Shown here in pieces: positions 14,923 to 60,213 of a DNA stretch of 64,000 nt. The notes below the pieces were generated by a model. The model was not told the origin of the DNA and made no database searches. It saw only the letters and a list, made by a program, of their open reading frames with translations. The DNA comes from Acorus gramineus (Eukaryota > Streptophyta > Magnoliopsida > Acorales > Acoraceae). The position numbers and the translations under genes were made by a program. Where the stretch lies: the NCBI GenBank assembly GCA_030737835.1, contig JAUJYN010000039.1, positions 1-64,000 of the forward strand. The letters run 5' to 3'. Each line of letters opens with the position of its first letter. The first letter of the stretch is position 1.

Positions 14923-15752
14923 TACAATTCGATATTGATAGTACTGACTAAACACAACACAGACCTGATTGGAGCAGGACTCCTTTTCTGTCTCAATTTT
15001 TACAAGAAAATTACTTAGGATTTCTCTCCCACCTAGATTACTCTCCCCACTCTTCCACACGGACCCCTTCGACTCTGCCCTCCACCACAACCACCCTCCC
15101 CTCACCCCCCCCCCCCCCCCCACGTGTTCAGAGACTCTGTGTAGTCGCCACAGAGAGAGCCTCTGTGTAACCATCGTGGCTTGGCGACACATGTATAACA
15201 CAGATCACGTGAGATCACGTGGTCGACTAACCAAAACAGCAACAACAATTGATGCCATTAGTCTTGGAACCCCATTCGAATACATTTTCACCACATGAGA
15301 TCATCTCTCTCATCTTCCCCCAAAAGGCCTCCCATCGTCACAGAGTCTCCCTCACCGAAGCCCCTGCCATACCCTCGCCGATCCCCGTGGTCCAACAACC
15401 GCCCCGTGAGTTTCACTTCTTGTTATAGTTTCAAGTTTTTTTTAATTTTTGTTTAGGGTTCTGATATGGATTTGAGTAATTTTGATTTGTTTATTGAATG
15501 AGTTTTTTAGTGGATTTGATTTTGTTGTTTGAATGGGTTTGTTTCAGATATGGGTTTGAGTAGATTTGATTTTGTTATTTGAATGGGTTTGTTTAAGATA
15601 TGGGTTTGAGTGGATTTGATTTTGTTATCTGAATGGGTTTGTTTCAGATATGGGTTTGAGTAGATTTGATTTTCAAGACTTTAAAATCCTACAATTTTTT
15701 TTTTTTTTGGTTTTTTTGGATAAAGCCCCTATATGACTTTTTTTTTTCTTTC

Positions 15753-16026
15753 GGTTTTTCATTTTTTAGTCCTTGTAAATTATATGATTTAGTGATCGAT
15801 CTCTCACTTTTTCATATTTCAGTTTAAGTCCCTAGATTTGAAGGGTATGTTTCTTATTAGTCCCTGGGAGGGATCTATCCCTAAATTATTTGGTTTTCTT
15901 TTTAGTCCATGAGAGGGACTAAAATGAACATATTTTTTAAATATGGGGATTTAAACAGAAATATGAAGAAGTGAGGGATTGATCATTAAATCATATAGTT
16001 TACGGGGACTTAAAAATAAAAAACCC
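15753..16026. mobile_element. foldback MITE, family 1 copy a (274 bp)
   Basis: The halves are inverted. Left ggtttttcattttttagtcc..tatatgatttagtgatcgat pairs with right ..attgatcattaaatcata and gggacttaaaaataaaaaac. It is absent from the equivalent place in the right MULE arm (around 41105-41120), which shows it is an insertion. It is homologous to 17392-17645. There is no coding capacity. Confidence 0.8.
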
Positions 16027-17391
16027 TTTTTTTGTGCATCAAACCCATATTTGAAGTCTTGTTAGTCTAATGAGAATGTATATATACTGTATAAAAAAAA
16101 AAAAATTCACTACTAATGATGAGTTCTGCCCTTAACTTAACACAATAATGAAATTAATAAGTTGCACATTGTGTATGATCTCCACCTTCACATTTGTTAG
16201 ACTCTGACAAGTTACACTTTATAAGAGTCGGTTCTAATCCAACAGTCACTAATGCATATATAATAAAATCTTGCATGAAATGGTTTTGGGCAGCGATACT
16301 CCCACCACCTTTTTTGTTTGGGGCACCACCTTTTGAAACTCACCACCTTTAATTTTTTCACTTACTAAGTGCACCACCATATATAAACAACATATGAGAA
16401 ACACCCTTCTCACCACCCACCATATTTCTTCCCATCGACCTCTCTCTTCCCTCTCTTTCTTCTCGTTTTATTTTTTCGATCTAGCCTCTCGAACACCTCT
16501 TTGACACATCCCATACGTTGCACTCATGAGGATCCATTTCAGAATCTACGAGGTTTTTTTTTTGTTTCTATCGACATGTACTTTGTCTATGAAATATAAC
16601 AACGCAGACAATCCATGTGTCTAATCCATTCCAGAACCTACGAGTTATTTTTTATGTTCCTGTCGACAGTTACATTGTCTATGAAATATAACTACGTAGA
16701 CACCTCATGTGTCTAACCCATTCCAGAAACTATGAGTTTTTTTTTTCCGTTTCCATCGACATGTACATTGTCTAGAAAATATAACTACGTAGACAACTTA
16801 TGTGTCTAACCCATTTTCAAACCTACGGGTTTTTTTTTATGTTCCCATCGACAGGTACATTGTCTAAAAAATATAATTACATAGACAATCTTTTGTTTAT
16901 GTTCCCATCGACATGTACATTGTCTAGAAAGTATAATTACATAGACAATTCATGTGTCTAACCCATTTCAAAGCTAACAGTTTTTTTTTTTTTTGCATAA
17001 GAGTCATATGTATTTTAGACTCGGGTGGTGGGCTTGTCCAGGCCAATTTTGTAGGGTGGTGGCACCTATAGGTTGGTGCTCTTAATTATTCTGTGTTGAA
17101 TACTGTATGGATGGTTTCTATGTAAACAAAGGTGGTGCCCTAAGCACATAAGGTAGTGGACATATCGCTACCTTATATGAAATTGCGATGGTTCTTTTGT
17201 CACAAAATGGATTATTAGATAGAATAGTAATACGGTGCGGTCCATGCGAACCGCATATATACATCTGTAACTCTTCGTTTGGGGTGGAGGATAAGTCAAG
17301 AATAAAAGATCTATATGTCTAACACATCCCAGAACTTATGGGTTCATTTTTCTGTTTTCATAGACAGAAGTATTGTCTACAATACTTAAAA

Positions 17392-17645
17392 GGGATTTTT
17401 AGTTTTGAGTCCCTGTAAACTATATGATTTAGTGATCGATCCCTCCCTTCTTCATATTTTGGTTTAAGTCCCCAGATTTCAAGGGTATGTTTCTTTTTAG
17501 TCCCTCTTAGGGACTAAAAAGAAAATCAAATAGGTCCCTGGGAGGAACTAAAAGGAACATATCCTTTAAAGCTGAGGACTTAAATCGAAATATGAAGAAG
17601 TGAGGGATTGATTACTAAATCATATAGTTTAAAACTAAAAATCCC
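17392..17645. mobile_element. foldback MITE, family 1 copy b (254 bp)
   Basis: It has inverted ends gggatttttagttttgagtc and the complement of aaactaaaaatccc, and is strongly similar to 15753-16026. It is flanked by tacttaaaa (17383-17391) and tatttaaaa (17646-17654), a 9-bp duplication with one mismatch. This suggests a Mutator-type MITE. It lies inside the tandem array of the 2.6-kb MULE, so it inserted after that array formed. Confidence 0.8.
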
Positions 17646-18186
17646 TATTTAAAACTTAGATATTTCATGTGTCTAACCCATTTTAGAACCTATGGATTAA
17701 TTTTTCTGTTTTCATAGATAGAAGTATTGTCTAAAATATTTAAAAACTTAGACACTGCATATGTCTAACCCATTCCAGAACCTATTAATGATTTTTCTAT
17801 TTCCATAGACACAAATAATGTGTAGAATTTTTAAAAACTAAGATAGTGCATGTGTTTAACTCATTCCAGAACGTATGGATTGATTTTCTGTTTTCATGGA
17901 CAGAATTATTGTCTACGGTAGGGAATTTAAAACTTAGACATTGCATATGTCTAACTCATGCCAGAACCTTGGTTGATTTTTCTGTTTCCATAGACAGAAG
18001 TATTGTAAATTGATAAACTTAGATAGAGCGTAGCGATGGATTGGATTTCTACTTGCTCCCGGGGAGTTATGATTACAACTGTTGAAAGTGATAGCAAAAG
18101 GATAGTTTTGAGTCAATAGGGTAGCCGCTTATTGTTTACAGTTAGGAAGCGAGGTGACCAACCGAACGAAGGTGCAAGAGTAGAAG

Positions 18187-18537
18187 GTGTGGAAGCTCTT
18201 ACCCTGGGGCTTCCTACCTTTCTCATCAAAGACTGCCTCACTCGGAAGCTCTTACCCTCGTTTCTCCCCATTTTTAAAAGTACATCAAAGTAGCATTCGA
18301 AGATCCAACATTTCAGGTCCAGGACAGTTAGAAAAAAAATTCATAGCCAAAAGTGAAGAAGAAGGTGACCGAAGGTGTGGAAACCAGTCTAAAGCTTCTA
18401 CCGCAGATTTAGGTCTTCCCCATCCTGATCCTGCACCCGTCACTTCTTGGAAGCACAGGGCACGGCTAGGTTCGTCACAAGTTTTTTTTGGTATTATTCC
18501 ATTCCAACTCCTTCTCGATACCTCCCAAGGAAAATGA
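18187..18537 (+). other. unrecognised 116-codon open frame in a GC-richer block of the nonautonomous MULE
   Basis: The frame starts MWKLLPWGFLPFSSKTASLG and ends ..LLLDTSQGK. It lies in the only non-repetitive block of the element. No domain is recognised and no splice structure is visible. It could be a captured gene fragment, as in Pack-MULEs, or chance. The block also contains two copies of ggaagctcttaccct, a short internal duplication. Confidence 0.3.
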
Positions 18538-19157
18538 AAATCCCGCTCTCCGATCTTCGTCGCTCCTATGTTTCCATACTTGTGTGTCTAACCCATTCCA
18601 GATCTTTTGATTGATTTTTTGTTCACCTAGACAGGATTATTGTCTAGAACCTTTAATGACATAGACACTCGAAGTGTATAACCCAAACCAGAACCTACAG
18701 TTTTCATACTGTTAACCTAGACATCTTGATTGTCTAGGTTAAATAAATACATAGACAATACATGTGTCTAACGCGGGAAGAGAGAAAGGGCGGCAGATAG
18801 AAAGGGTGGTGCTCTTAATAATTATACCTTAGAAGTGTTTCAATGCCTCTGGTTAGTTGAGGAGGTGGTGCCTAAAGTAGTTTAGGTGGTGGGAGAATCT
18901 CTCCCCAATGGTTTTCCCAGTTACATTTTAACACTTTATGCCTGTTTTATAAGAAAGAATTACACAAGCTCATGAATTGATGGTAAATGCTCCCAGTTGT
19001 TCAAAAATGTTTTCAATAGAACAACTCATCTATCCTTTACGAAACAAAACAAATAAAAAAAAATAGATAAAAGTAATAAATTAAGAAATTAACAATCAAC
19101 AAGATCAAGGGGCTGGTAATCTCAACCTTCACTAACAGTGGTATTGGAATGGAAAGC

Positions 19158-19352
19158 TCAAATCACATCTAAAAGCCTAAATAAGGATACGTAAGAGAGG
19201 CAATGGCCATTGGAAGTTTCTGCTGCAATATGGTCAGAGCAAGCTATCAAACAGAATGAGACTCCCAAATCAAGAGATATGTAGATAAACCAAGGAGGGT
19301 AGAAATTAAGCTCCCAAGTATCTAGCAACTTTGGAAATATTTTAGATCCCAA
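19158..19352 (-). other. 64-codon open frame in left MULE arm, shared with right arm
   Basis: This encodes a peptide starting [20 protein letters not shown]. The right arm encodes the equivalent frame at 40397-40591 with about 11 differences in 64 residues and no frameshift. It is oriented away from the transposase gene. No known family is recognised. It may be chance preservation of homologous DNA rather than a gene. Confidence 0.3.
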
Positions 19353-19525
19353 CCTACTACAAACTCTACTGCGGTTGGGGAAGTGATATAATAGATTGTA
19401 TATATTCCGAATGGAATATACTGCTTCTATGGGAAATTTTTAAGAGAAATATACATATGTGCACAAAGATCCATACATGTTAGTCATCTTGTGTTGTTGC
19501 TTTTTGAATCATTTCATTCCATCTT

Positions 19526-20222: not shown

Positions 20223-20227
20223 AATTG

Positions 20228-20720
20228 TGTTGGAGATATGGTTGAGTTAATTAAAGATAATGATTGTATCCCACTATTTTGAAAAGTAGTTATTGTGATT
20301 AAAGTTACTTTGACTATTTGTTAGGGAGTGGGACACATTTTGTATTCATCCTAATCGCTCACTTAAAGTGGCCCATACATCACACGGTTGAGAAGTACTG
20401 GATGTGATTGTGATTCTGTTACAGTAATTACCCACATCCCGGGATTAAGTGGGAGGAATCCGTAATAGGTGTGATTCCCTAAAGATCTCATTACTGAGAT
20501 TTGGCCCCTCTCTTAGCATATAAAAGGGATTGGATTCCATTAGATATCCCAAGTCCAGAAAAGCTAAAGAGAGGAAGTCAAATCTTCTTTTACCACTTTT
20601 ATTTTTTCAGGCTCTAAAAGAAAGAAGAAGAAGAATAGAGATAAATCGTGATCAACCTCCAATCATTCAGATTAAATATGTTGATCCGTAAGCCTTCGAT
20701 CATGTGAATCTAGTTTAACA
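20228..20720 (+). repeat. 5' LTR of the copia element
   Basis: It begins tgttggagatatgg and ends tctagtttaaca, with TATA-like gcatataaaaggg near 20517. It is homologous to 28479-28978. It is immediately followed by the tRNA-Met-type primer-binding site tggtatcagagcatggtt at about 20723-20740. Confidence 0.9.
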
Positions 20721-21469
20721 ATTGGTATCAGAGCATGGTTATAAAATTATTTAATAATATATTTTAATGGTGATATATAGTTTTATTCATCATTTATATG
20801 TTAAATAATTCATTTTTTGTTTTTGAATTGTACATGACATGTATATGCTATACGGGTTGATTTGCTGATACGTTGGTTTAATATTTTAGCATATGAATTT
20901 ATTTGATTACATGGCATGTGCATGAAACTGTTCCTATTCACGTATGCATGGACAAATTACATCAAATGCTTACATATATATTATTTTAATGGAAAACGCT
21001 TGACATTAGCATTCAAGGCTTCATTAATTGTGCTTTGATATATGTGTATGCATATAAGATAATCATATATATTTAATGAAATGAACCTTGTTCGTATATT
21101 TATATGATTTACAGTACAGGCCGAATGTGTATGAATTATTTAATCTGTTTAGTCGGCATATGTATATGATGATTTGATATTTATTTATTTAATTTAGTTA
21201 ATCGGCATATGCATATTTCTTCACATTTGCATTTGGTGAATGTTTAATGAAGGTTTAAATGAATGTCAATTAAATAAATAAATTAATTAATTAAGTTTGT
21301 TATGAATGGGTATATAAAAGGATTTAAGATTTACATCTTTTGAATAGAATTGTGGTTTGTTTATTTCCCATAATTCCCAATTAGTGTGTTCTATTATTCT
21401 TGTGGATAATTTATACAGACTACATCTTGATAATTCCCATCAACAATCCCTTTTAACCTTGCATAGAAA

Positions 21470-24238
21470 TGTTGGCACTAAGCGAGGAAGAATAAATTAA
21501 ACATCATCCATGCTTTAGCATAAAAGATTAGGCCATGTCTCAGAAGAGAGAATCCGGAGATTAGTCAAAGAGGGTATACTACCTTCACTTGATTTATCTG
21601 ATTTTGGGACATGTGTGGACTGCATAAAGGGAAAGCAGTCCAAAACCTATAAAAGAAATTCCATAAGGAGTAATGGAACATTAGAATTAATCCATACAGA
21701 TATTTGTGGTCCTTTTCCTCCTTGTATAAGTGGCGAAAGATACTTCATCACATTCACTGATGACCACTCAAGATATGATTATATCTACATGATCTCTGAG
21801 AAATCAGAAGCAATCAATGCCTTTAAAGTTTTCAAGGCAGAGGTAGAGAACCAACAAAATAAAAGAATCAAAGTGGTAAGGTCAGATAGGGGTAGTGAGT
21901 ATTATGATAGAGACACTGAAGCTTGAAGAGCTATAGGTCCATTTGGTAGGTTCCTTGAAGGATGTAGAGTTCAGGCACAATATTCCATGCCAGGTAGACC
22001 TAATCAAAATGGTGTTGCTAAAAGAAAGAACCGCACTCTTTTGGACATGGTTAGGAGTATGATTAGTAATTCTTCACTTCCTTTGTTCTTGTGGAGTGAG
22101 GCCTTAAAGACTGCTATTTATTTATTAAACAGGATTCCTTCGAAGGCTGTACCAAAAACACCTTTTGAAATATGGACAAGAAGGAAACCTAGTTTAAATC
22201 ACCTACATACGTGGGGTTATCAGGCAGAGGCTAGGTTATATAATCCACATGAAATGAAATTAGATTCTAGGACAGTAAGTGCATATTTTATTGGATATCC
22301 AGAAAGATCCAAAGGATATAAATTTTACTGTCCTTCACTCCAAACCAGAATAGCTGAAACTGATGTAGCAAAATTTCTTGAGGATGACTTAATCAGTGGG
22401 AGCATGGAACCTTGAAACATTGTATTCGAGGAGATAATAGAAACGACACCTGATGTTGTTGATAGTTTGATGGTTCCATATCCAGTAATTCAACAACGAA
22501 TTGTGGAACCACAACCTATTGTTCAAGATCCACCTCACCAAGAACCTGAACCGGTAAATGAAATTCCTCCTCCAGTTCAAGAGGAAATTCAAATACCATT
22601 AAGAAGGTCTTCAAGAGAAAGAAGAAAAGCTATATCAGATGAATATGTTGTGTATCTACATGAAGGCCATGATTTAGAAGATCCTATTTCATTTTCACAA
22701 GCCATAAATAGTAGAAATTCATCTAAGTGGTACGATGCTATGAAAGAAGAGTTAAATTCTATGCAAAAGAACAATGTCTGGGATCTTGTTGAATTGCCTG
22801 AAGGAGTTAAACCCGTTGGGTGCAAATGGGTCTACAAGACCAAAAGGGACTCTAAAGGCAACATAGAGAGGCATAAAGCCAGACTTGTAGCAAAAGGTTT
22901 CACTCAAATTGAAGGCATCGACTATACAGAGACCTTCTCTCCAGTCTCTCAGAAGGACGCCCTTAGAATTATTATGGCATTGGTAGCTCATTTTGATTTA
23001 GAGCTTCACCAAATGGATGTGAAAACATCATTTTTAAATGGAGATCTTTATGAGGAGGTATATATGGATCAACCTGAAGGCTTCTCGCAAAAAGACAAGG
23101 AACATCTAGTATGCAAATTAAGGAAGTCGATATATGGACTTAAACAAGCCTCCCGACAGTGGTACCTCAAATTCAATGAGGTAATTATGACCTATGGTTT
23201 TAAGGAAAACATTGTTGATCAATGTATATATCTCAAAGTCTGGTTCTGTATGTCGATGACATCCTGCTTGCTAGTAATGATTTAGGGTTACTTCATGACA
23301 CTAAGAACTTTCTTAGCCAAAATTTTGAGATGAAGGATATGAGTGAAGCCTCCTATGTTTTAGGCATAGAGATTCACAGAGATAGATCTAAGTATTTACT
23401 TGGACTATCTCAAAGGACCTACATCGCTAAAGTGCTTGAGAGGTTTGACATGAGTAACTGTAAACCTTGTGTGGCTCCTATCCAAAAGGGTGACAAATTC
23501 AGTAAAGCTCAATGTCCGAGGAATAAACTTGAAACTTTAGAGATGGAGAAAATTCCTTATGCTTCCGCTGTTGGCAGCCTGATGTATGCTCAAACATGCA
23601 CTCGTCCTGACATTGCCTATGCAGTTGGATTACTTGGAAGGTATCAAAGTAATCCAGGCATGGAGCATTGGAAGGCAGCCAAAAAGGTTATGAGATATCT
23701 TCAAGGGACGAAAGAACACATGCTCACATATAGAAGATCAAATAATCTTGAACTCATTGGGTACTCCGACTCTGATTATGTTGGGTGCTCCGATGACTGT
23801 AAATCAACATCTGGATATGTCTTCATGCTTGGTGGTGGTGTTGTTTCATGGAAGAGTGAGAAGCAAAAGGCGACCGCTTCCTCTACCATGCACGCAGAGT
23901 ATATGGCTTGTCACACAGCCACATCTCAAGCATTAGCACTAAAGAATTTTGTCACAGAACTTCAAGTAGTAGAGTCCATCTCAAGACCAATAAAGATTTA
24001 TTGTGACAACTCAGCTGCTGTCCTTTTCGCTAACAACAGAAAGATATACAAGGGCCTTAAGCACATTAAGGTCAAGTATTATGTTGTTAAAGAAAGGATT
24101 GAGAAGGGCTACATATCGATTGATCATATTAGCACCGACATGATGCTTGCTGATCCTATGATTAAAGGGCTAGCACCTACATTGTATAAGGAACATGTAG
24201 AACATATGGGTCTCATTTCGGATTGGAGCTTGGTGTAA
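21470..24238 (+). pseudogene. copia polyprotein remnant: integrase, reverse transcriptase, RNase H
   Basis: Integrase-type sequence is read around 21480-22390, with a CIKGKQSK zinc-region tail, HTDICGPFP, and a DDHSRYDYIYM core. Reverse transcriptase is read around 22700-23290 (WVYKTKRDSKGN, RLVAKGFTQ, QMDVKTSFLNG, LYVDDIL). RNase H follows around 23700-24240 (YSDSDYVG, SSTMHAEYMA, IYCDNSAAV). This domain order is copia-specific. The region is broken in several places and is not expected to make a working protein. Confidence 0.9.
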
Positions 24239-24673
24239 TTTTCAACATTTTATGGTTGTACTTTGGTTTATTTATGAATAACATTCATTTTGTCTTTTAA
24301 CACATTGTGTTAATCAAGTAAATGTCCATGTGGACAATAAAGAGGGCCGTGTAAAAGGCATTTGGTTATAGCATTTTCATTTGGTAGACATAAAGTTTTG
24401 TCTAAATAAAGGTACTTGGTTTAAAGGATAAAATGATATTGTAATTATGGAAGGGACTACTCTACTATAATGCAGTAGAACCGTCATAGTTCTTGTCATT
24501 GATTCCTTTGAATTGAGTTAAAGATACGGAATTGTTGGAATCTTTTTTCAAAGCGCGCGCATTGATTCCCTTGAATTGAGTTAAAGATACAGAATTATTG
24601 GAATCATTTTTCAAAGTGCGCGCATTCTTATTTTTCAAATTTGTTCAATTCAGTACATCAAGTTTATTATTAT

Positions 24674-27600
24674 TGTCATGCCCCAGGGCGGCCGTCCCCG
24701 AGACGTGGCAATATATAAAGTATCAGCTATCAAGTACAAGAGGTCAACAATGACTCTAATAAATAACACACAAGCTGGCAAAGCAATGATAACTGATAAC
24801 TCAACTGAAAAGCGGAAGCATAAAAATATCAATAAGTCTGTAAACCAAAAATATCATTACAGACTCGAATACACAATCAATGTCATGTGAGAGCCAAGTC
24901 TAGCCAAATAAAATACAACCTGTGCCACATGCACGATTTACAATACATAAAATGACTCTAGGACTGCTGACATCCTCGCACTCGCCAACCGCCGGACGGG
25001 ACACTCCACGCACTCGAACCCTGCCACAGGGAAGCTCCAGCTCCACGCCCAACACTGCCCCTGAAAAAGAAACAGTATGCGAGGGGTGAGCTACAAGCTC
25101 AGTGAGTGGCTGGAAACCAAACACCATTACAACAATTCAATACTAAGGCAAATTCCTTTTAAGGAAGAACATGGGTAGAAACCCAATGGATAACAAGGTC
25201 ACGCGGCAGCGCGACCAATCTCACCCTCACCCTCACTCTCGGAGGGAGACTCTTGGGACTCTTGGGGAGAGACCATACCGTTTGTCGAAGAGACGTGGAA
25301 TTACTAGTCTACACAACACTACTGGATTATCTATATTGAGATAACTGCCCAACGATGTCTTTGAACATCGTTACATAACCGGACCCAATAACTATGGGAA
25401 CGGACGAACAACGAAATGGGTCACGCGGCGACGTGACTTCAACTCATCCTCACCCTAGCCCCTGGAGGGGTGACCCTAGGGACTTTTGGGATAAATCCGC
25501 TTGCTCTACACCCTTCGTCATCCGGTAACCCTCTCCCAGGTAGCCTCTACCTGGTATACTCCCATGATCAGTACATCTTGCCGCATGCATCGATAGTACA
25601 TACAGGTGGGGGCCCTCTGTCAGGACAGCTACAACGCCGGGCAGCATCGACACGGATCCGATGAAGGGGAGAACGATTCCACGCTCGCAATATCATTCGT
25701 TAGCCCTCTCCTGGGTAGCCTCTACCTGGTATACCCCCATGATCAGTACATCTTGCCGCATGCATCGATAGTACCTACAGGTGGGGGCCCTCTGTCAGGA
25801 CAGCTACAACCCGGGCCGCTTCAACACAGACGACATTGGGAGGAAACACTCCATGTTCGCAAAGCAAACCCAATGGAAAAACAACTACTCTCGATAATCG
25901 CCTACCGATGCTATCGAATACATATGAACTCCCACACAGATGTGTTGCTCAGACGCAAGGAGTTACCTCGGCTCTCGCACCAAAAATAAGCCCAAGGCAT
26001 AACCCAATGGGCGGTTCATACACTCGCCTAACATGGGTAAGCCTAGCTTAAACACCATAACCACCGGTTCGAAACACCGGTATAACATCGAATTCTCCTG
26101 AATTCCAACAAGTGCATTACACGGATGCAGGGTGGCAATTACATCATTTGCGCTCTAACTAACTAAGGTACAACCCGACAACGGGTCATACCCACGCCTA
26201 GCACAGTAAGAACAAATAGTCTAACATGCGCAATTTATAATAGGAGAATTCTATCGCAGTTATATATATGGTCCACCTAACATGAATACACATCATAAAC
26301 AACATATCATGCAACAAACATACAAAGCATGACCTGGCAACACATGCATACAAGGAAATTAATCATGCAAGCACGCAATATATAATCTAACATGCGTTGG
26401 ATATCACCAACTTAAAAGGGAAGGGTTAAGCGCGATCTCGCGCACCAACAGGCGCATGCCAGCATTCCCAAGCGAACCTAAGTCAAGCAGGAACCACATC
26501 TACTTACTCAGTTCGTGCAAAGAGAGAGGGCGAGAGAGAGATGAAGCCTCATCATCTCACGAAGGTCATAGCTTTGCCCCCAACAAGATGGGCACAACAA
26601 CTACACCACGCCCTCAAATCTTTATAACAAGGGAACATTAGGCCTGTACCCAAAAATTAACCCAAGCTTGATTATGCTAGATATAATTAATATAAGGGTA
26701 GTATTACAAGACTACCTAAGGCATGCCATATTCTATACATCCATACACCACACATAAAGCAAGCCCAAACCAGAGGGGCGCATGTAACACAATCATTCTT
26801 AAATAACATAGGCAAGTACATGGTAGAATAGGGGGTTCTACGTAATATACGAGCTATACAGTCCTAGCATGCAATATCTAACATAATATGGGTGCCAAGA
26901 TGCACCATGGATGCGCGATACATGACTACGTGCATCGAACGCTTCCCGAAGGGTTGGATCGAACCACTCACCTAACGACCCATTCATTGCGAGTTCCACC
27001 AACGAAGGCTGCAAAACACAACCAATAATGCTCAATTAAAATATGGAACCTCCTGACACACATATAACTCTACTTCATGAAGACCCTAACTCCTGATAGT
27101 TTCCACAACATACATAACAACTCCCTGACACACAATCGAGCAAAACTACTAAACCTACTGCTACCAGCCCTACTATTTGATCTCCAGAACACCAAATACA
27201 TATCTAAAAATTATTAAATAAATCATATACATTCTCTGATATGCTGGGATCATAATCTATGAAGACATTATAACCTAATTTTGCCTGTACAAGCCCAAAT
27301 AAATCACTTCCAGAAGCAGGTCAATTCCTACACGAATCTGGATAGGCCATGCAAAACAGGTTCTAACTTACAACACAGATATCATAATGACCCCAAATTT
27401 CATATATAACATCTAGACACATAGATGATCATATTACATGATTACACAAGCCTCAAAATATGCCTCTAGGTACCTGATTCACAAGGATCTTCACAAGACA
27501 TAAAACTGTCTTACTACAACACAAAGACACCACCATTCACCACCATCTCTTTCACAGCACACCTTCTACCTGGCTGGACCAAAATGGGAGGGAAAAACAG

Positions 27601-28405
27601 GGGATCAGCTAGAGGAGGAGGAGAGGGAGGAGAAACATCATCAACAACAACAACAACATAAGCACACACACACACCATGATCTTCTTCTTCTTGCACTAC
27701 CTCTTCCAAGCACTCCTTCTTCTCCATCTACTTCTGCTTCAACCAACAAAAGGGAAAGCAAAAGAAAAGAAGGGCCAAAGAGGGCTTGGATGGTTTTGAG
27801 AGGGAGAGAGAGAGAGAGAGAGAGAGATATTCCACAACAAAGGGGGCTTTAAATGGGATTAAAGTGAGTTGGTGGGGGGTTGACAAGACCAAATCGTCCC
27901 TGACCAGAAATTCTGGACGGGCTTCACTAGAACAGCCATAACTTCCACGATATAGCTCCGAATTGCACCATTAAAAATCCTTTGGAAAGCCACGAAGATT
28001 ATCTACAACTTTCATGTTTATGCCAAGATCAAATAATCCCTCCAGCTATTCTGAAATGTGAGCTAAACATTGAACAGGGCTGCTGCCAGAATTTTCTCAT
28101 CCCCGGGGTATACTTGGAAAAATACCCATAACTTTTACTACATGAATCCAGTTGATCTAATTCCACTTTTGTATGAAAGCTAACTCAAAACTGAACATCT
28201 CATGATAAAATCCTATTTAAACCTCTTCATCTTGGATAATAACAAAATTAAATCCAAATACCCAATTGGAAATGCATTGCTTTTAGGAGAAAAATTATGC
28301 AGCCAAATTTTCAATCAGAGCACTTCAACTCCCGCAGGTAGCTAAAAGCCAAAATTTTAGCGACTCCGATCGAAAAATAAGACTCCGAATGACACAGGAA
28401 TAACA
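24674..28405 (-). mobile_element. long solo-LTR element, family L, copy A (3.73 kb), inside the copia element
   Basis: It has ends TGTCATGCCCCAGG and ..ACAGGAATAACA with a 5-bp duplication attat (24669-24673 and 28406-28410). The interior has no polyprotein frames. Reading left to right it carries a start block, the block cagtatgcgaggggtgagct, CCCTCACCCTCAC arrays, two 178-bp units (about 25523 and 25701) and a final block shared with the other copies (atctacaactttcatgttta, ccggggtatacttgg). Unlike copies B to E it lacks the GC-rich alternating block; AT-rich sequence occupies that place (about 26990-27560). Strand is inferred from TATA-like sequence in relatives. Confidence 0.8.
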
Positions 28406-28478
28406 ATTATATTATATATATTTTTTATAAAATATTCTTTTCAAAGAGGACGTGTGTTATATGGGCCAAGTGGGAGAA

Positions 28479-28978
28479 TTTGGAGATATGGATGAGTTAA
28501 TTAAAGATAAGGATTGTATCCCACTATTTTGAAAAGTAGTTATTGTGATTAAAGTTACTTTGACTATTTGTTACGGAGTGGGACACATTTTGTATTCATC
28601 CTAATCTCTCACTTAAAGTGGCCCACACATCACACGGTTGAGAAGTACTGGATGTGTTTGTGATTCTAAATTTCTGTTACAGTAACTACCCACATCCCGG
28701 GATTAAGTGGGAGGAATCCGTAATGGGTGTGATTCCATAAAGATCTCATTACTGAGATTTGGCCCCCCTCTTAGCATATAAAAGGGATTGGATCCCATTA
28801 AATATCCTAAATCCAGAAAATCTAAAGAGAGGAAGTCAAATCTTCTTTCACCACTTTTATTTTTTCAGGCTCTAAAAGACAAAAGAAGAATAATAGAGAC
28901 AGATCGTGATCGACCTCCAATCATTCAGATTAAATATGTCGATCTGTAAGTCTTCGATCATGTGAATCTAGTCTAACA
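28479..28978 (+). repeat. 3' LTR of the copia element
   Basis: It aligns with 20228-20720 from ttggagatatgg to tctagtctaaca. It carries a small insertion (aaattt) relative to the 5' LTR. It is followed by the target duplication aattg. Confidence 0.9.
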
Positions 28979-28983
28979 AATTG

Positions 28984-29858: not shown

Positions 29859-29863
29859 CCTAT

Positions 29864-32800
29864 TGTTGTGCCTGTGTCATTTGGAGCGCTCTGTTTGAAA
29901 ATTTGGGTACATAATTCTTCCTAGAAGTTATGTATTCCTGATTTGGTATTTGGATTTGATTTTGTTAAAATCCAAGATGAAGAGGTTTAAATATGATTTT
30001 ATTATGAGATATCCAGTTTTGAGTTAGCTTTCGTACAGAAGTGGAATTAGATCAACTGGATTCTTGTAGTAAAAGTTATGGGTATTTTTCCAAGTATACC
30101 CCGGGGATGGAAATTCTGGCAGCATCCCTGTTCTATGTTTAGCTCTAATTTCAGAATAGCTGGAGAGATTATTTGATCTTGGCATGAACATGAAAGTTGT
30201 AGATAATCTTCTTGGCTTTCCAACGGAATTGGAATTGTGCAATTCGGAGCTATATTGAGGAAGTTATGGCTATTCCAGTGAAGCATGCGCAGAATTTCTG
30301 GTCAAAGGGCGACTTAGTCATTTCATTCCCCTTAGATATTTGTTGCATAAATATCTTCTCTTTCTCTCTCTCTCCCCTCCCAAACCCCCACGTCTACCTT
30401 CTTTGCTCTCCTTCTCTCTTTTCAAACCCCCCCCCCCCCAAGTGTTTGATTAATTTCCCCAAAGAGAAGGTGGAGGAGGAAGAAATGGTGAGGGTTGTTC
30501 TTGTGTTGTGTTGTTGTTGTTTGTTCCCCTCTCTCTCAAGCACCTTTACATGGATTCCCCCCCCCCCTGATTTGCAGCCATAGGAGGGCTGAGGTGGTGG
30601 TGGTGGTTGAGGTGGTCGCGGGTGCGTCGAGGGCCCCCGAACCTCCCCCTTTCGTTCCCCCTCCCAAGGTGAGCTCTTCCTCTTCTTTTCTTGGTTTTCA
30701 TGGCTTAAGGGGCTGTTGGGGAAGTCATGCATGCTATGCATAGGGGTTAGGGTGTGTGTGAGGGGTTGGGGAGGGTTAAAAAGGGGTTAGGGCAAGGTGG
30801 GCACGCGTTGGGGGCAGTCTGCGCGCGTGCGCGCGCAGGCGCGCGCTGGCAGGCGCTGGCGGGCGTGCAGACGCGCACGAGTGCGTGCGCGTGAGTGCGC
30901 GGGTGCGCGCGGACGCGCGCGAGCGGGGCAGTGCGCCTGGGCATGCGCCTGGGCGCGGGGCTGGGGACCAGTGCGCGTGCGCGCGTGCGTGGGCGTGCTG
31001 GGGCGTGCGAGCAGGGTGTTGCGCGGGGGACGCAGTGCGCAGGGTGCTGCGCGAGGGCGTGGGCTGGACGTGCAGTGCGCGCGGGAGCGCGCGAGCGTGT
31101 GCGCGGGTGCGGCAGCGTGTCTGGGCACGCGGGTAGGCGCGCGACAATGCGCTGATGGTGCTGGGGTGCGTGCGTGCGTGCGCATTCGTGCATGCGCGTG
31201 CGGGGGGGCATGCGTGTGGCTGCCCGAGGGTTCGGGTAGGTGTCGGGGCACTCGGACTCGCGTGCGTACGTGCGTGCGAGCCCGTATGCATGCTTGTCCG
31301 AGTATTGGGTATTTCTAATGTTTTCTATGTGTAAATTGTGTTGTTTCTCACCAGTTGGATGCCCCTACCTTGCAGATCTCGTCGGATGGGATGCACGAGG
31401 TCCCGGGTCGTAAGGTGAGTGGTTTGATTCCAATCCCCCCCCCCCTCTCTAGGGATGCGCTCGACCCGCATAGACGCGCATCGCGCATCGATGGGGCCCC
31501 CTAGCTATAATATGTAAAAGCTATGCATGCATGATTAATATGATATATCCATGCCACCTTAGACTTTGTATGCTAGGGATACGCACCCTTATATCATGTA
31601 TAGCGGCCTATGCATGTTTAGTCACCATGTTTCATGCTAGGAAAGCCTTGACCTATGCATGTTCCCATTTAGTTTAATTTATTTAAATCAAGATGGGATT
31701 ATGTGATTATATTGTTGTAAGCATGCCTTAGAGAATATTATAACCTTGTTGTTATAATATATGTTTCCCCGCATCTTAGTTATGCGCCCTGGAGGAATTC
31801 TTGAGAATTCATGACATTAGAAATGTTAGGAAGCGTTGTCGACGGATCCAAGAGGATCGCATGCGTGTGAGTAGGCTGTTCTCTTCCCTTCGTCGGATCC
31901 GTGTAGGGACTCCCCGGCGTTAGACAGGCTATCCTGACAGAGGGCTCCCATCTGTAGGTACCTCCGATGTGTTCGGACAGTGCTGATCGTGGGAGTATAC
32001 CAGGTAAGCTACGGAGCGGGGTCGTGCTCCCGGTGAACCAAGGGTGAATAGCAGTCTAGTCAGTCCCAAAAGGCCCATGTCACCCCCTAAAGGGTGAGGG
32101 TGAGGGTGGGGTGGGTCGGCAATGTTATGACCCACTAGCTTGTGTAGTTACTCCCGTTTAGGGACTATGACTACTTTAAGGTTAATATGAGTGTGTTGGT
32201 TGTTGTTATGCATGTGTGTGATATCTCGATAAGCGAGTATCGAGAGTGGTTGTTTTTCATTGGGTTTCGCTTTGCGAACATGGGATCGTTCTCCCCTTCA
32301 TTGGATCCGATGTAGGAACTCCCCAGCGTTGGCTGTACCTGACAGAGGGCTCCCGTCCGTAGGTACCTCCAATGTGTCGGACAGTACGGATGGTGGGAGT
32401 GGACTAGGTGGAGGCCACGAGGGTGGGAAAGGGCTACTGGCGGACCAAGGGTGTAGAGCGGTGAGTTGAGGAGATCGGGTTGTAGATACTACCCGGGAGA
32501 GGGTTAATGAATGATGTCGCGAGCGTGGAATCGTTCTCCCCTTCGTTGGATCCGATGTAGGAACTCCCCGGCGTTGGCTATACCTGTCAGAGGACTAGGC
32601 GGAGGCCACGAGGGTGGGAGAGGCTACCGGTGGACCAGGGGTGTAGAGTAGTCTAAGTCTCTTCCCAAAGTCCCAAGATGTCTCCTTTCAGGAGTGAGGG
32701 TGTGGATGAGGCGAAGACACGTCGCCTCGTGACCCATTCGTTGTTCGACCATTCCCATAGTTGTTGGGTCCGGTCTCGTGATCAATGTTGAAGGACATCG

Positions 32801-33511
32801 TTGGGCGATTGTCTAGATGTAGATGATCCAGTAGTGTTGAATAGACCAGTAAATCCGGGTCTCTTCGACCGACGGTATGGTCTCTAGACCAGTAAATCCG
32901 GGTCTCTTCGACCGACGGTATGGTCTCTCCCCTTAAGTCCCAAAAGACTCCCTCCGGGAGTGAGGGTGGGGGTGAGGTTGGTCGCGCCGCCGCGTGACCC
33001 AGTTATCCATGGGTTTCTACCCATGTTTTCCTTGAAAGGAAATTGATTATGTGTTGAACTGTAGAATGGTGATTGGTTTCCAGCCACTCACTGAGCTTGT
33101 AGCTCACCCCTCGCATACTGTTTCTTTTCAGGGGAAGTGTTGGGCGTGGAGCTGGAGCTTTCCTGTGGCGTGGTCTTATGGGCGTGGAGCGTTCTGCCGG
33201 GGGGTGGCGAGTGCGAGGCTGTCAGCATTCCTAGAGTCATTTTATGCTTTGTAAATCGTGCATGTGGCACAGGTTGTATTTTCTTTGGTCTAGACTTGGC
33301 TTTCACAGGACATTGATTGTGTATTCGAGTCTGTAATAATGTTTTTGATTTACAGACATTGTTATATATTATGCTTCCGCTTTTCAGTCAGTTATCATTA
33401 TCTTGCTTTGCCACCTTGTGTATTGTCGTTGGTGTCCTTATTGTCCTCAGGTATTGATAGCTGATATTTATCATTGTCACGTCTCGGGTACGGCCGCCCT
33501 GGGGCGTGACA
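29864..33511 (+). mobile_element. long solo-LTR element, family L, copy B (3.65 kb)
   Basis: Ends are TGTTGTGCCTGTGTC and ..CTGGGGCGTGACA, flanked by the 5-bp duplication cctat (29859-29863 and 33512-33516). In this orientation a TATA-like gcataaatatc lies near 30345-30356, followed by a CT-rich leader, which suggests transcription to the right. Next come a GC-rich block (30797-31300), splice-like signals around 31330-31420, tandem promoter-distal units (about 31910-32640) and the conserved cactgagcttgtagctcacc block at 33089. There are no retroviral-type genes. By structure it is a solo LTR of an element with unusually long LTRs, or a LARD-like element. Confidence 0.8.
30797..31300. repeat. 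GC/CpG-rich alternating purine-pyrimidine block in copy B
   Basis: About 500 bp dominated by gcgcgcgtgcgcgcgcaggc-like runs. Low complexity keeps all six frames open for up to about 170 codons, but the translations are Ala/Arg/Gly/Pro-rich and not protein-like. Alternating GC/GT steps are the classical Z-DNA-prone composition. The same block is in copies C, D and E. Confidence 0.85.
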
Positions 33512-33516
33512 CCTAT

Positions 33517-34305: not shown

Positions 34306-35825
34306 TTAAAGGCTCTCAATTGCATTATGGGATGCAAATTGAGTTTGAGAGCTTTGACCTCGTGATCTCTTCTCCAATACGTCGATCCATCTTTTTTGAG
34401 GCTTCCCTCCCACATTCTTCTTTCCTCTTCTTTTGAAGCCTTTAGCAGCCTTGACATTCGAAATGCTATCCACCTCATCTTGCACATTATCATCTTGAAA
34501 ATTTTGAGATGATTTCCTCAAATTTTTATCAACCTCTTTCATTATCTCATTTGTGCGGCGTTTAAGTAGGTCCGTTGAATGGTGTGTTTCGACGCCCTTG
34601 GATGCCACTTGAATGAGACCATGACTTAATTATTAAAAATGCCTTCCCAATTCAAAAATAGGGTCAACCTGTAATGAAGAAGAACACATAACTTTACAAT
34701 AAAACCCTACAATCAACTCATAACATTTTCAATTAATATAATAAACACATATCAACCTGTATTGAAGAAGAACAAATGTCATGCACCACATCAAATTTTG
34801 CATCTCTTGTCCACCTCGTCAAGATATATTGTGGTGGAAGAAATTTGATGTTTCTGTGATCAAGAACTTTTAGAACATGGCAACACTGGATACCCATAAA
34901 TTCAAATTTTTTGGAAATACAAGTAACCATTTCAGTAGCTGAATCAAACAAAATGGTTCTTTCATTGCTACGATCTCTGTGAATTTTGTACTCTATCACA
35001 TGCCCCACCTTCCCATGAATGTAGATAAAACAATTAAGAGATTTTTCATACTCCGCTTGAAACAACTCAAGGATCTCTGGCGTGTAAACCTTTGCAACAC
35101 ATGAAACCATCAAAGTATGATATGGAATTACCGTTACAATATTCATCATCTGAAATCAACACTTAATTCACTTTCACGATGATCATCCATAACCCTATCA
35201 AAATGCTAAAAGAAATGTAACTGGTCATGCTTTGAGTTCATGTAGCGTCTCAAAAGAGCATTGAAGCTTTCACTTCGTTGTGTACTCTTCATGTTCGTAC
35301 AAAATGTGTCTCTCCCATACACTAGAGTCCATTTCTCCTTTTCAACAAAAGTTTGTTGTAGCCATTTATTACCTTCAAGATTGTATTTATCAAGCATGTT
35401 AGTCCAAGCATCTAGGAAATTTTCCTCCATCTCATACCCAAAAATACAAGCATACAAGGAACTTCTGAAACCTTCGATAGCATAAAGATGTCTAAAATGC
35501 TTTGTTGCATTTTGGGTCAAGTGCCACACACATAACCGATGACGAGCATCTAGTAGAGCAATTGTAATAGCTTTGGTCATCGCCCCTAATTGATCTGTTA
35601 GAATAATCTTTGGATGTCTCCCAGACATTGCTTGAAGAAAAGATTCAAACAACCAAATAAATGAGTCGGGTAGTCTTGTCATAAAATAATGCACCACCAA
35701 AAATAATTGTTTGCCTATGATTATTCACTCCAACGAATGGTGCAAATGGTCTTTCATGATTATTTGTACGATAGGTCGTGTCGAAGCAAATTTCATCACT
35801 ATAATATGCATAATCAACAATAGAC
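34306..35825 (-). pseudogene. FAR1/MULE transposase, central and C-terminal part
   Basis: The minus strand encodes the MULE transposase core: CFDTTYRTNNHERPFAPFVG near 35690-35825, then SFLQAMSGRHPKIILTDQ and HRLCVWHLTQNA (35206-35700). A SWIM-type zinc region follows at 34733-35149 (CISKKFEFMGIQCCHVLKVL), then a basic tail KGFKRRGKKNVGGKPQKRW (34306-34608). A probable intron lies near 34620-34745. The order and motifs match FAR1/FHY3-related MULE transposases. The N-terminal part lies beyond the copy E insertion at 39467-40136. The gene is split by that insertion and also carries smaller frame disruptions, so it is inactive. Confidence 0.85.
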
Positions 35826-36439
35826 CTAGCTGTTATACTTGTGTCACTTTTAGCCTGCTGGTAACCGTTGGAGCGTTCTGGCAGTTTTTAAAATTTTTAG
35901 GGTTTTCGATCGGAACCGCTAATTTTTGGACTGTTAGCTATCGTCCTGAGTTAGAGGACTTCGATTGGAAATCTAACTGCATATTTGGTGTCCTGGTGCC
36001 ATTTTAGGCCTCTCACGAAAATTTCATCAAATTCCGGTAACATTTCTGAAATTTTGCAGTTTCAGGGCGTATCTGGGTTTTTAAGTCGCTCGCTATATAA
36101 GTGAAAGCATAAAATATCCTGGCACTATTCATCATCCCCTACCTTGAGCCCTCTCTCTCCTCTCCTCCGTTTTTCTTCCGTTTGAGGCCCTTAGACCCCT
36201 CAAAACTTAAAAGTTAAAACCTAGGAAGTGTAGATCGGATCTACACCCCGGTGGTTTCAAATCCCAATTCCGGCAAGTTTTGGCCGTCCGTCCGCCCTCT
36301 CTTCGCCTCTGTTTTGAGCCATCTCGGTGGTGGAGGTAGATCCGGGCGTTGGAAACCCTTTGGGAGAGGTTTCGGCGCGCGGAGAGCAACCGGACTTCGC
36401 TTCCTCCCCTTGGTAAGCCTCTTTTTCCTCTCTTTCTTG

Positions 36440-37690
36440 CCTAGATGTATGCTAGGAGGGTGGAAATGGGGTTGGGTGGAGGTTGGCGGCGGTGGGTGGC
36501 CGTCGGAGGGCTGTGGGAGGCGGTCGGAGGCTGTGGGGTGGTCGGAGGTGGGTGGTAGGGGAGCTCGGGCTGGCTGGCTGCTGTCTCGGGCAGGGCAGCA
36601 GCGCAGGGCAGCAGGCGCAGTGGTTGGCGCGGGCGTGCGCGCGTGCGTGCGCTCGGGCGGTGCTGGGGGCCAGCAGGGCTGGGCGTGCGGGCGCTCGGCT
36701 GGCGCTGGAGGCCAGCAGGGCTGGGCGTGCGCGCTGGGCAGGCTGGCAGGGCTAGCTCGGGTAGGCTGGGAGCAGGTGCACCAGTTTGCTGGGCGCGCGA
36801 GCGTGTGCGCGTGGGTGCGCGCGCGGGCGTGCCCTCGGGGGGTGCAGAGGGAAGCGTGTGGTGCAGGCTGGCTGCGGGTAGTGGCTGTGCGCGCTGGCAG
36901 GCCGGGCTGGCAGGCTGGGCACGCAGGCGTGCAGGGCAGGGGCGCTCGGGCATCAGGCGGGCAGTGCCCCGGGGGTACAGGCGAGCGGTGCTCGGGCCAC
37001 TCGGCGACGCGCGCAGGCAGGCAACTCGGGCAGCAGCGCGGGCAGGCTGGCAGGCGCGGGGGGCGCGTGCTGCCAGGCGCGCTGGGCGCGTGTTGCGCGG
37101 GCGTGCGCGTGGACGCTGGGTGAGGGTCCCGGGTGCTGGGCGCTGAGCGCTGGGCGCTGGGTCGCGGGTACCGGGTGCTGGCTGAGGGTGCTGGGCGCTG
37201 GGGCCCTGGGCGCTGGGCATCGCTGCGGGGCGTCGTGCAGGGTGCGCGCGGGGCGCGGCAAGGCGGCTGGTGGTGTGCGCGGGGTGCGCGCGGGGCGGAG
37301 TTGGCGGTGCGCGCGGTGTGCGCGCGGGGGCGGAGCTGGCGGTGCGCGCGTGGTGCGTGCGGGTAGAGGCAGGTGGTGCGCGCGGGGTGCGCGCGGAGCG
37401 AGGTGGTGCGCGCGGGGCGAGGCGCTGCGCGCGAGGCGTGCGGGGTGCTCGCGGGCCAGCGCGAGGCGTGCGGGGTGCGCGCGGGCGGCTGCGCTGGGGC
37501 GCAGGGGTCGCGCGGTGCACCCGGGAGGTTCGGCGGTGCGCGGGGTGCGTTGGATGAGGCGCGGCGGTGTACCCGGGCGGTCGAGCGGCCGTGCGGGTGG
37601 TTGCCGGCCGTGCGGGTGGTTGCCGGCTGTGCGGGTGGTAGCCGGAGTGCTCGGGTTAGCGTGCGTGCGGGTCGTATGCACGTTTGCCCG
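36440..37690. repeat. 1.25-kb GC-extreme block in copy E
   Basis: Almost entirely G and C with short repeating modules such as ggcgctgggcgctggg and gcgcgcggggtgcgcgcggg. Long open frames on both strands (up to 359 codons) are a by-product of stop-codon-poor composition. Translations are Ala/Arg/Pro-rich with no domain. Confidence 0.85.
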
Positions 37691-38599
37691 AGTGTTAGGT
37701 GTTTAGTTGTGGGTTTTGTGTGTTTGGGGTATTTTAGAGTATTTATGTATTGTTCTCACCATATTGAATGTCTGTCTTGCAGATCTAAATGGACGGTCGC
37801 GCGACGACCCCGATCTCTGGTGAGTGGGACAATCCAACCCAGTAGAGAGGTGTTATACGCACTTGGGCGTATACCGACCTCTCCTGGGGCACCATGGATA
37901 GATATTGACATGTGTAATATGTATATCATGCGAGCATGATTTAATTGTAGAATGCATGTTACCCTAGGCTTTGCATGTTAGGGACTTGCACCCTTAGGAT
38001 ATGTATATGAGCCATGCAGCATGTTCCCTGGTTCCATGTTAGGAAGCCCGGCCGATGCATGTGCCCTACTAGTTTATTTATTTAATTAAATGCTAGTATT
38101 TGTTAAATTGCATGTTATAGTGAATATTATAGGGGAGGGGCCTTGCGAGGACAGCGATGAGACCCGGGTTAGGGTACACCGTGTTCCTTGTTTGGTTGTC
38201 GGGGTGTCCTATAACGGGAACTCACGCTGCCCTCCCGAGTTTCTTTCCCCAACGATATTCCACCTTGTTATAACCTTATGCATGTTCCCCGCATCGTAGT
38301 TATGCGCCCTGGTGGGTTCTGAGGAATTCAGAACATTAGTGTTGTTATGATGTGTTGTCTGCGGATCCGAGTGGATCATATGCGATGGATAGGCTGTTCT
38401 GTTCCCTTCGTTGGATCCTTTAGAGACTACCTCAGCGTTAGACAGGTTGTCCCGTGCAGGGGCTCCCAGTAGTAGGCGCCTCCTGATTTGGTGAAGGACT
38501 GTGCTGAACGTGGGAGTGGCCAAACGACCTACGGAGTGAGGAGAGACTATCGGTGGACCAAGGGTGACCAACAGCCTAGTCAGTCCCAAGAGCCTATGT

Positions 38600-38915
38600 C
38601 ACCCGTTGTAGGGTGAGGGTGAGGGTGTAGTGGGTTGGCGATGAGCGACCCGGTGGATTTGTCTATGGATGATTGTCAGTCCCAATATCCTATGTCACTC
38701 CTGTTGAGGGGTGAGGGTGAGGGTGTAGTAGGTTGGCGATAGCGACCTGCTGGATTGGTGTAGTAAGTCCCAATATCCTTGGTCACCCATTGAGGGTGAG
38801 GGTGAGGGTGTAGCGGGTTGGCGGAAGCGACCCGTTGGTTTGGTGTTGATTAGTCCCAATATCCTTGGTCACCCATTGAGGGTGAGGGTGAGGGTGTAGT
38901 GGGTTGGCAGTAGCG
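38600..38915. repeat. G-rich tandem array in copy E
   Basis: At least four units of about 75-80 bp, each with gggtgagggtgagggtgtag followed by a ggttggc..gacc segment (around 38611, 38706, 38795 and 38879). The four G-tracts per unit are compatible with G-quadruplex formation. Related CCCTCACCCTCAC stretches occur in copies A, C and D on the plus strand. Confidence 0.8.
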
Positions 38916-39466
38916 ACCCACTAGTTGAGGAATTGTTGATTATTGGTGGCTATGGTAAATGTGGTTGTGGATGTTAAAAATTATCTGGTCGTGGTCAATA
39001 TTGTCTGTGATGCATGGGTTGTGCCGTTCACTGAGCGTGTGGCTCACCCCTCGCATAATATTTTCTACAGTGTCATCTGAGTCGGATCTGGAGGAGGAGC
39101 TCCCCGAGCGACTTCATCAGTAGCGGAGTAGCGCCACGTCCCGCGAGTTTCTGAGACTATCAGCATCCCTTGTACCAGTATGTATTATTTTCCGTGCTTG
39201 GGCACGCGTTTGGTTGTATTTGGATGTCTTTGTATGTATATTGGCTCTCACAGGACATGTGATTATGTATGGAGTCTGTAGTGTGTTTTGATTACAGATT
39301 CAGTCTTTAGTTATCCGCATTTGGTGTATATATCCTATCAGCCCTGCTTTTGTTGTCTGTGTGTCATTTTGGCTGCTTGTGTATGATATTATTGACCTCT
39401 TGTGTAGATTCTGATATTATATATACACTTGTCGCATCCCGGGGATGCCTGGGGCGTGACACTAGC

Positions 39467-40136
39467 ATTGGCCCAAAACACATTAGTTATTTGTTCATCT
39501 GCATCAAGTTGCATTGAGTGAAAAGAAAAATGGATTTTGCTTTTGCTTGTTATTGAAATACTGAATAAGAGCACCCGCAATTCCATTCTCCATTCTTCTT
39601 TCCCTTTTGGTGCGCAGGTAAGACTTCACATCATTCAAATAACACTAAGATTTCTTCTCCCTCCAACTTGTCCACTCATCAAATCCATAACTGCTTTTGG
39701 TGCTAATCCTGAACCGTTTATGATGTCAACCTGAGCAACTTGAGCATTTTCTATTTTTCTATGTGACCTCAAATTATGGAGCAATGGGGTTGATACAAAA
39801 TCATGATTGTAGTTTTGTTCAAATTTAGTGACATGATAAGCTCCAGAAGATTGATAAGTGATAATCATATGTGCCTCACATCCTGTTCTTGTATCGGGTT
39901 GTGGGTACAAGACTTTTCGCTTATCAACCCCTTTCTTCCCTTCTTTAGAACAACGAAATTTTCTCTCTCACTATGCTATTGGACTTAAATGCATCACTTT
40001 TTTCTGATGTTAAATCCAATTGATCTTGCATATGTGTTGTGAATTGATGTGCACTATCTTCGGAATCAAATGCCATACCAACTTCAGGTATACCATTATA
40101 GCTACATTCTCCAACAATCTCATTGTCTCCTTCCAT
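39467..40136 (-). pseudogene. FAR1/MULE transposase, N-terminal part
   Basis: Starting at the ATG at 40136, the minus strand encodes an acidic leader and IPEVGMAFDSEDSAHQF, the usual start of FAR1 domains. The zinc-binding/WRKY-like FAR1 DNA-binding region follows (PDTRTGCEAHMIITYQSSG, TKFEQNYNHDFVS, LRSHRKIENAQVAQVD; 39635-39910). A one-base frame change lies between the leader and this region. A further decayed linker leads to DADEQITNVFWANA, where copy E has inserted. It is the same gene as 34306-35825. Confidence 0.82.
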
Positions 40137-40202
40137 AACAACTCAATGTTCACCTATAAGAAAAAAACATAATTTAGAACATTTAACAAGAAGATGGAAT
40201 GA

Positions 40203-41640
40203 AAGGATTCAAAAAGCAACAACACAAGATGACTAAACATGTATGGATCATATGCAACTTATCATGGTTTTAAAAATTTGTGCACATATGCATATTTCCC
40301 TTAAAAATTTCCCATAGAAACAATATATTCCATTTGGAATATATATAATCCATTATATCACTTCCCCCACCGCAGTAGAGTTTGTAGTAGGTCAGTATGG
40401 GATTTAAAAAATTTCCAGAGTTGCAAGATACTTGGGAGCTTAATTTCTACCCTCCTTGGTTTATCTACACTTCTCTTGGTTTGGGGCTCTCATTCTGTTT
40501 AATAACCTGCTCTTGCCATATTGCTGCAGAAACTTCCAATGGCCATTGCCTCTCTTGTGTATCCTTATTTAGGATTTTAGATGTGATTTGAGCTTTCCAT
40601 TCTAATATCATTGTTAGTGAAGGTTGAGATTACTACCCCCTTGATCTTGTTGATTGTTAATTTCTTAATTTATTACTTTTATTTGTTTTTTTTTATTTGT
40701 TTTGTTTCGTAAAGGATAGATGAGTGGTTCCATTGAAAACATTTTTGAATAACTGGGAAGCATTTACCATCAATTCACGAGTTTGTGTAATTCTTTCTTA
40801 TAAAACAGGCATAAAGTTTTAAAATGTAACTGAGAAAACTATTTCATGCAAGATTTTATTATATATGCATTAGTGACTGTTGGATTAGAACCAACTCTTA
40901 TAAAGTGTAACTTGTCAGAGTCTAACAAATGTGAAGGTGGAGATCATACGTAATGTGTAACTTATGAATTTCATTATTATGTTGAGTTAAAGGCAGAACT
41001 CATCATCAATAGTGAAATTTTTTTATACAGTATATATACATTCTCATTAAACTAATAAGACTTCAAATATAGGTTTGCTGCAAAAAAAAGAAAAGAAAAA
41101 AAGTTATACAAGGGCTTTATCCAAAAAACCAAAAAAAAAGTAGGATTTTGAAGTCTTGAAAATCAAATCCACTTAAACCCATATCTGAAACAAACCCATT
41201 CACATAACAAAATCAATTCCACTCAAACCCATATATGAAACAAACCCATTCAAACAACACAATCAAATCCACTAAAAAACTCATTCAATAAACAAATCAA
41301 AACCACTCAAATCCATATTAGAACCCTAAACACCAATTAAAAAAAAAATTAAAACTGTAACTAGAAGTGAAACTCATGGGGCGGTTGTAGGACCACGTGG
41401 ATCAACGAGGGTGCAGCGGGGGCTTCGGTAAGGGAGACTTTGTGACGATGGGAGACCTTTTGGGGGAAGATGAGTGAGATGATCTCACGGGCTAAAAATG
41501 TATTCGAATGGGGGTGGACTAACAGCGTCAATTGTTGTTGCTATTTTGGTTAGTCGACCACTTGATCTGTGTTATACACGTGTCATTGAGCCACGAGGGT
41601 TACACAGAGGCTCTCTGTGGCGACTACAGAGTCTCCGAAC
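40203..41640 (-). repeat. right terminal inverted repeat of the composite MULE (uninterrupted)
   Basis: An uninterrupted 1.44-kb arm whose reverse complement aligns with the three host pieces of the left arm. It lacks both insertions found there and so provides the empty-site reference. The transposase start codon lies 67 bp inside it, so the arm should contain the transposase promoter. Confidence 0.8.
40397..40591 (+). other. 64-codon open frame in right MULE arm, counterpart of 19158-19352
   Basis: This encodes a peptide starting [20 protein letters not shown] and ending FRILDVI. It is equal in length to the left-arm frame. Function unknown; see the left-arm entry. Confidence 0.3.

Positions 41641-60159: not shown

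Positions 60160-60213
<54 letters not shown>

Follow-up and report, generated by a model that had tools for sequence, protein, structure and literature searches.

The DNA analysed here (the window, 64,000 nucleotides from Acorus gramineus) is positions 1-64000 of contig C77, and the genome searched comprises 398,581,865 bases in 137 contigs. The stretch 15124-41642 is a single FAR1-type MULE of ~7.57 kb that has been opened by six insertions (Table 1); once their lengths are subtracted, 7570 of 26519 bases remain, in agreement with the 7.5-kb element, interrupted by at least six nested insertions, that an earlier note had reconstructed. When the right arm (40191-41640) is compared by BLASTN as its reverse complement with the left side, it matches in collinear pieces at 15126-15623 (87.0%), 15663-15751 (84.6%), 16028-16287 (91.5%) and 18907-19525 (88.4%). 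The proposal of matching inverted arms that bracket a FAR1/MULE gene is borne out by these pieces and by the MULE domain PF10551 at 35206-35724 (- strand) and pieces of transposase protein between them, and the right arm indeed provides an empty-site control for both insertions in the left arm.

Table 1. Features of the interrupted MULE, in window coordinates (TSD, target duplication)
Feature	Position	Strand	Basis or remark
Left arm, outer piece	15124..15751	+	end reads GTGTTC, versus GGGTTC in family copies
276-bp insertion, left arm	15752..16027		absent from right arm; present at C2
Left arm, middle piece	16028..16287	+	BLASTN; final 9 bases are the duplication AATGGTTTT
Captured tetraspanin fragment, left arm, part one	16157..16287	gene sense on -	sequence match
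2.6-kb element, MULE-like, GGG...CCC ends	16288..18906		9-bp TSD AATGGTTTT (second copy 18907-18915); absent at C2
Captured tetraspanin fragment, left arm, part two	18907..19301	-	sequence match; 18907-18915 is the duplication
Left arm, inner piece	19302..19525	+	BLASTN
Copia element (RVT_2)	20228..28978	+	LTRs ~20228-20721 and 28480-28978; TSD AATTG
Older relative of insertion A, within copia	~24674..28328	-	borders approximate
Insertion A, TG...CA ends, solo-LTR-like	29864..33511	+	5-bp TSD CCTAT; absent at C2
Transposase remains, C-terminal part (MULE, SWIM region), broken frames	34736..35857	-	protein match
Insertion B, TG...CA ends, solo-LTR-like	35831..39461	+	5-bp TSD CTAGC; absent at C2
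Transposase remains, N-terminal part (FAR1 region), broken frames	39437..40142	-	protein match
Right arm, no later insertions	40191..41642	-	BLASTN
Captured tetraspanin fragment, right arm	40448..40966	+	40448-40458 resembles end of exon 1; 40459-40558 exon 2; 40559-40966 part of intron 2

Because copies of the family terminate in GGGTTC(A/G)GAG, we set the ends of the element at 15124 and 41642, which keeps the location proposed earlier and corrects the exact borders. On the + strand both flanks are C runs, in the window and in a second assembled copy of the locus on contig C2 alike, so that the element probably inserted into a C tract and its own 9-bp duplication, previously taken to be readable, is not.

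The window element is probably a dead copy. Its remains align with the transposase protein of L041, a family copy on contig C3, in five main matching pieces, two of which are separated by insertion B. The L041 frame contains the domains PF03101 (2.8e-23), PF10551 (3.6e-30) and PF04434 (4.1e-07), and the combination of FAR1, MULE and SWIM domains with inverted ends around the gene identifies the family as a FAR1 (Jittery-type) MULE, where the name Jittery rests on domain make-up. Window 52294-52791 contains part of a second, distant MULE transposase that shares 38% identity with the L041 protein.

The second assembled copy lies at C2:7412500-7438300 and corresponds, in opposite orientation, to window 13320-42835, and tested stretches of window 6000-50000 match C2 at 94-99.6%; it may be the other haplotype or a recent duplicate. 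Common to both versions are the 276-bp insertion, the copia element and the older LTR-like copy inside it. The copia element, which had been credited with a solo LTR, has two, separated by a K2P distance of 0.061. Since C2 shows the empty sites of the 2.6-kb element (9-bp TSD) and of A and B (5-bp TSDs), these three are later than the split of the locus copies. C2 in turn carries two insertions that the window does not have, whose ends are the same as those of A and B; its left arm is without 88 bp that are kept by the window and by the right arm. In all, at least five mobile-element insertions distinguish the two loci, yet their arm segments are only 0-2% apart. The LTR-like family to which A and B belong has further copies, with 79-86% identity, on the opposite strand at window 53905-60692.

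About a third of each arm, 519 bp, is a piece of a host tetraspanin gene that lies on contig C11, a capture that the earlier note had missed. The fragment has identical borders, site and orientation within the arm in all four arms of the window and C2. It is missing from 13 of 13 arms of other copies that match on either side of the site (L017-L022, L028, L031-L033, L035, L037 and L038), and from an extra inner arm copy in the C2b element; the right arm of the C8 copy (L029), which is without that part of the arm, and the L041 subfamily, which has other sequence there, were not counted. When the genome was searched with the block, it matched the four arms of the locus, two places on C11 (87%) and 116 bp at C7 (85%). 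The exons of the C11 gene were read from L045, with splice sites taken from GT/AG and the protein and exon 3 placed by eye; joined, they give a protein that reaches 38.9 bits for tetraspanin PF00335, above the cut-off of 32.1 (E 9.9e-10). When three minus-strand frames of L013 were scanned against Pfam with stop codons written as X, no domain emerged. The sense strand of the tetraspanin piece in the right arm runs outward from the element, against the transposase gene, and the piece lies upstream of that gene; judging from this arrangement, transcription started in the outer arm would yield RNA antisense to tetraspanin. The tetraspanin gene region itself occurs twice on C11 (C11:11144857-11145342 and C11:11405514-11405999), ~260 kb apart, inverted and 99.5% alike over 3.5 kb.

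We considered whether the 519-bp block could be a small transposon and dropped the idea: it has no self-inverted match besides one 12-base and one 8-base palindrome, and its sole other full-length matches, the two places on C11, are inside the tetraspanin gene. A flanking GAAATT repeat looked at first like a target duplication; short matches at the joins may explain it instead, as AATT at one join is present in the C11 gene and GAAA at the other is found only in the exon end of a C7 paralogue, not in C11.

On the + strand of the window, the block opens with 11 nt resembling the close of exon 1, passes through the 100 nt of exon 2 and takes in ~400 nt of intron 2. It seems to join exon 1 to exon 2 without the 1.5-kb intron 1 (1509 bp in the C11 gene) and to continue into intron 2, a layout that suggests derivation from a partly spliced transcript. 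The 11 nt lack one base relative to the C7 exon end and differ by two edits from the C11 end, levels equalled by 9 (C7) and 103 (C11) of 200000 random 11-mers of the window. A genome-wide search allowing up to 3 mismatches finds the joint between exon 1 and exon 2 nowhere but in these four arms. Such a transcript, with intron 1 spliced out and intron 2 kept, could have filled an arm of the MULE, after which copying from arm to arm would have put the RNA-derived piece in both ends (+519 bp), and repeated rounds may have grown the long arms of the family; we hold this reading tentatively and give it somewhat less than an even chance. Very nearly an even chance, in our estimate, goes to a genomic DNA source, either the C11 gene or a lost relative, from which intron 1 was deleted before or after capture. 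The edges of exon 1 and exon 2 share GGT, so the intron may have been lost precisely at the DNA level, and the retained sequence of intron 2 fits a DNA source as well; capture via DNA rather than mRNA has also been argued for Ds, in passages that extend the argument to other DNA transposons (PMC3260210). However, the deletion would have to coincide with the splice sites, and the genome search found no donor without intron 1, which is present in the C7 paralogue too.

Whichever the donor, sequence beyond the fragment also places the two arms of the locus closest to each other. In a tree built without the block (857 of 1722 columns kept; 4 of 22 arms, from the C3 and C7 copies, were left out because they have no comparable middle part), the left and right arms of the window and C2 form one clade (support 1.000), apart from the 14 arms of eight other copies, and one arm has therefore probably been copied onto the other. 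The two arms of a copy group together in C9a (0.995), C4 (0.867) and C5a (0.740) too; they do not in C5b, C8 and C2b in the same tree, so that copying between arms is not universal. The K2P distances between the arms (substitutions only) are 0.108 for the outer part, 0.069-0.070 for the captured block and 0.061 for the inner part; an arm divergence of 10-13%, as estimated previously, thus holds for the outer part and is too high elsewhere (0.069, 0.061). The outer arm differs weakly from the block (p 0.046 and 0.015). Later conversion of the block alone was rejected, as block and inner arm show no difference (p 0.87 and 0.37). Given the values for the block (0.070), the inner arm (0.061) and the copia LTRs (0.061), capture, copying and copia insertion appear to have been close in time, before the locus copies split.

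Independent capture of the fragment by each arm is most improbable. Each block is nearly as distant from the C11 gene (K2P 0.081 for the left, 0.076 for the right) as from the other block, as two events might leave them; yet the borders and the orientation within the arm are identical, a single gap run separates the left and right blocks as against seven and eight to C11, and the arms are closest relatives beyond the fragment.

A genome search with the right arm gave at least 101 matches, 40 of its 62 candidates having been scored, and five other places have both arms with the FAR1/MULE gene or its remains between them. In L041 (C3) the arms are 99.1% identical over 1157 bp, and the FAR1, MULE and SWIM domains lie in an open frame of 591 aa. 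The 591-aa frame is also open in L047 (C7; arms 98.1% identical over 1369 bp, outermost end of the left arm missing) and in L048 (C11; 97.1% over 1185 bp, right end beyond the sequence examined). L040 (C9) has arms of ~1.0 kb with 92.3% identity and no frame of at least 120 aa; in L044 (C54) the arms are broken and a frame of 516 aa is present. As the young copies combine arms of 1.15-1.37 kb (97-99% identity) with an open 591-aa frame, long arms are a trait of the family.

Matching 9-bp target duplications were found in four of the eight copies checked (one 9/9, two 8/9 and one with a 2-bp slip): C2b has AAGTGTTTT (9/9, read from the end motifs), C9a and C5b match at 8/9 each, and C3 has GCATATAAC versus GCATATATAAC. 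At C4, where two arms lie 50 kb apart, the compared flanks do not match, and these arms may belong to two separate elements; in C8, C5a and C54, one end each was not located. It is scarcely credible that the arms are a dispersed repeat flanking FAR1 sequence merely by chance, a reading that the earlier note had itself raised and to which the short elements C2b (~3.35 kb) and C1:21.25 Mb (~3.5 kb), with arms too close to hold the gene, lend some colour, because the five copies have arms plus gene, the target duplications are located outside the arms and the short elements are consistent with internal deletion.

Overall, we think it quite likely that the locus is a dead copy of a Jittery-type MULE in which a tetraspanin piece filled one arm, that arm templated the other, and the insertions followed. 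The intact form of the family would be a cut-and-paste transposon with a FAR1/MULE/SWIM gene, inverted ends of 1.0-1.45 kb and 9-bp duplications. A break or gap in one arm of this lineage may have been repaired with the host sequence, with short matches at both joins, and the filled arm would then have served as template for its partner, leaving the piece in both ends. The copia element would have inserted thereafter, to be followed, once the two assembled versions of the locus had split, by the second MULE-like element and the two solo-LTR-like insertions.

Pack-MULEs are non-autonomous elements that contain a host gene fragment and no transposase sequence. The window element has the host gene fragment and also has transposase remains between its arms; it works like Pack-MULE capture and is not filed as a Pack-MULE. 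Acquired sequence within extended MULE TIRs is already known (PMC3310237), and the Pack-MULEs and MULEs with extended or tandem TIRs described there are alike in having a host gene fragment inside and in counting acquired sequence as TIR; unlike those in the parts of that source consulted, our element has transposase remains and an apparent splice junction in the fragment. Possible short matches at the joins of captured DNA would be shared with animal Pack-TIRs, for which gap filling with template switching has been described (PMC8277862), whereas here the element is a plant MULE and the fragment is inside the inverted end and in both ends.

With respect to the ends, the Jittery sub-group (PMC6446971) and CitMule (PMC4334395) resemble this family in carrying FAR1, MULE and SWIM in one transposase, and CitMule also in its 9-bp duplications. 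However, CitMule is called non-TIR, and plant Jittery sub-group TIRs are given as 39-292 bp or none, compared with 1.0-1.45 kb here; for MULEs the same survey gives TIRs of 14-500 bp in its text and up to 640 bp in a table (PMC6446971). Grapevine Mutavine-7 shares long TIRs and a 9-bp duplication with this family but is MuDR-type, with 710-bp TIRs of half the length, and the consulted part of that study lists no TIRs for two Jittery-like multi-copy families (PMC2528002). A partial search of the openly licensed literature found no report of FAR1 MULEs with TIRs >1 kb or of a splice junction in a MULE-captured fragment. As far as the consulted parts of these sources go, the finding is of a known kind, with arms longer than they list and a new detail, the apparent splice junction, inside.

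What the often very long and variable ends of MULEs mean is a question posed in the survey (PMC6446971). The element illustrates one way in which such ends can lengthen, and the locus offers a readable case of end growth, a host fragment going into one end and then being in the other too, for which comparison can be made with the donor gene, with arms that lack the fragment and with the C2 version of the locus. The splice junction, if true, bears on whether DNA transposons capture gene pieces solely from DNA.

The L041 subfamily has ~600 bp of other sequence in its arms (L041 1130-1730), for which no host source was seen among 28 matches, none of which was screened for host genes. This sequence is whole in both arms at C1:27.8 Mb and C7:0.1 Mb, and in the C3, C6, C11 and C67 copies one arm retains just 405 bp of it.
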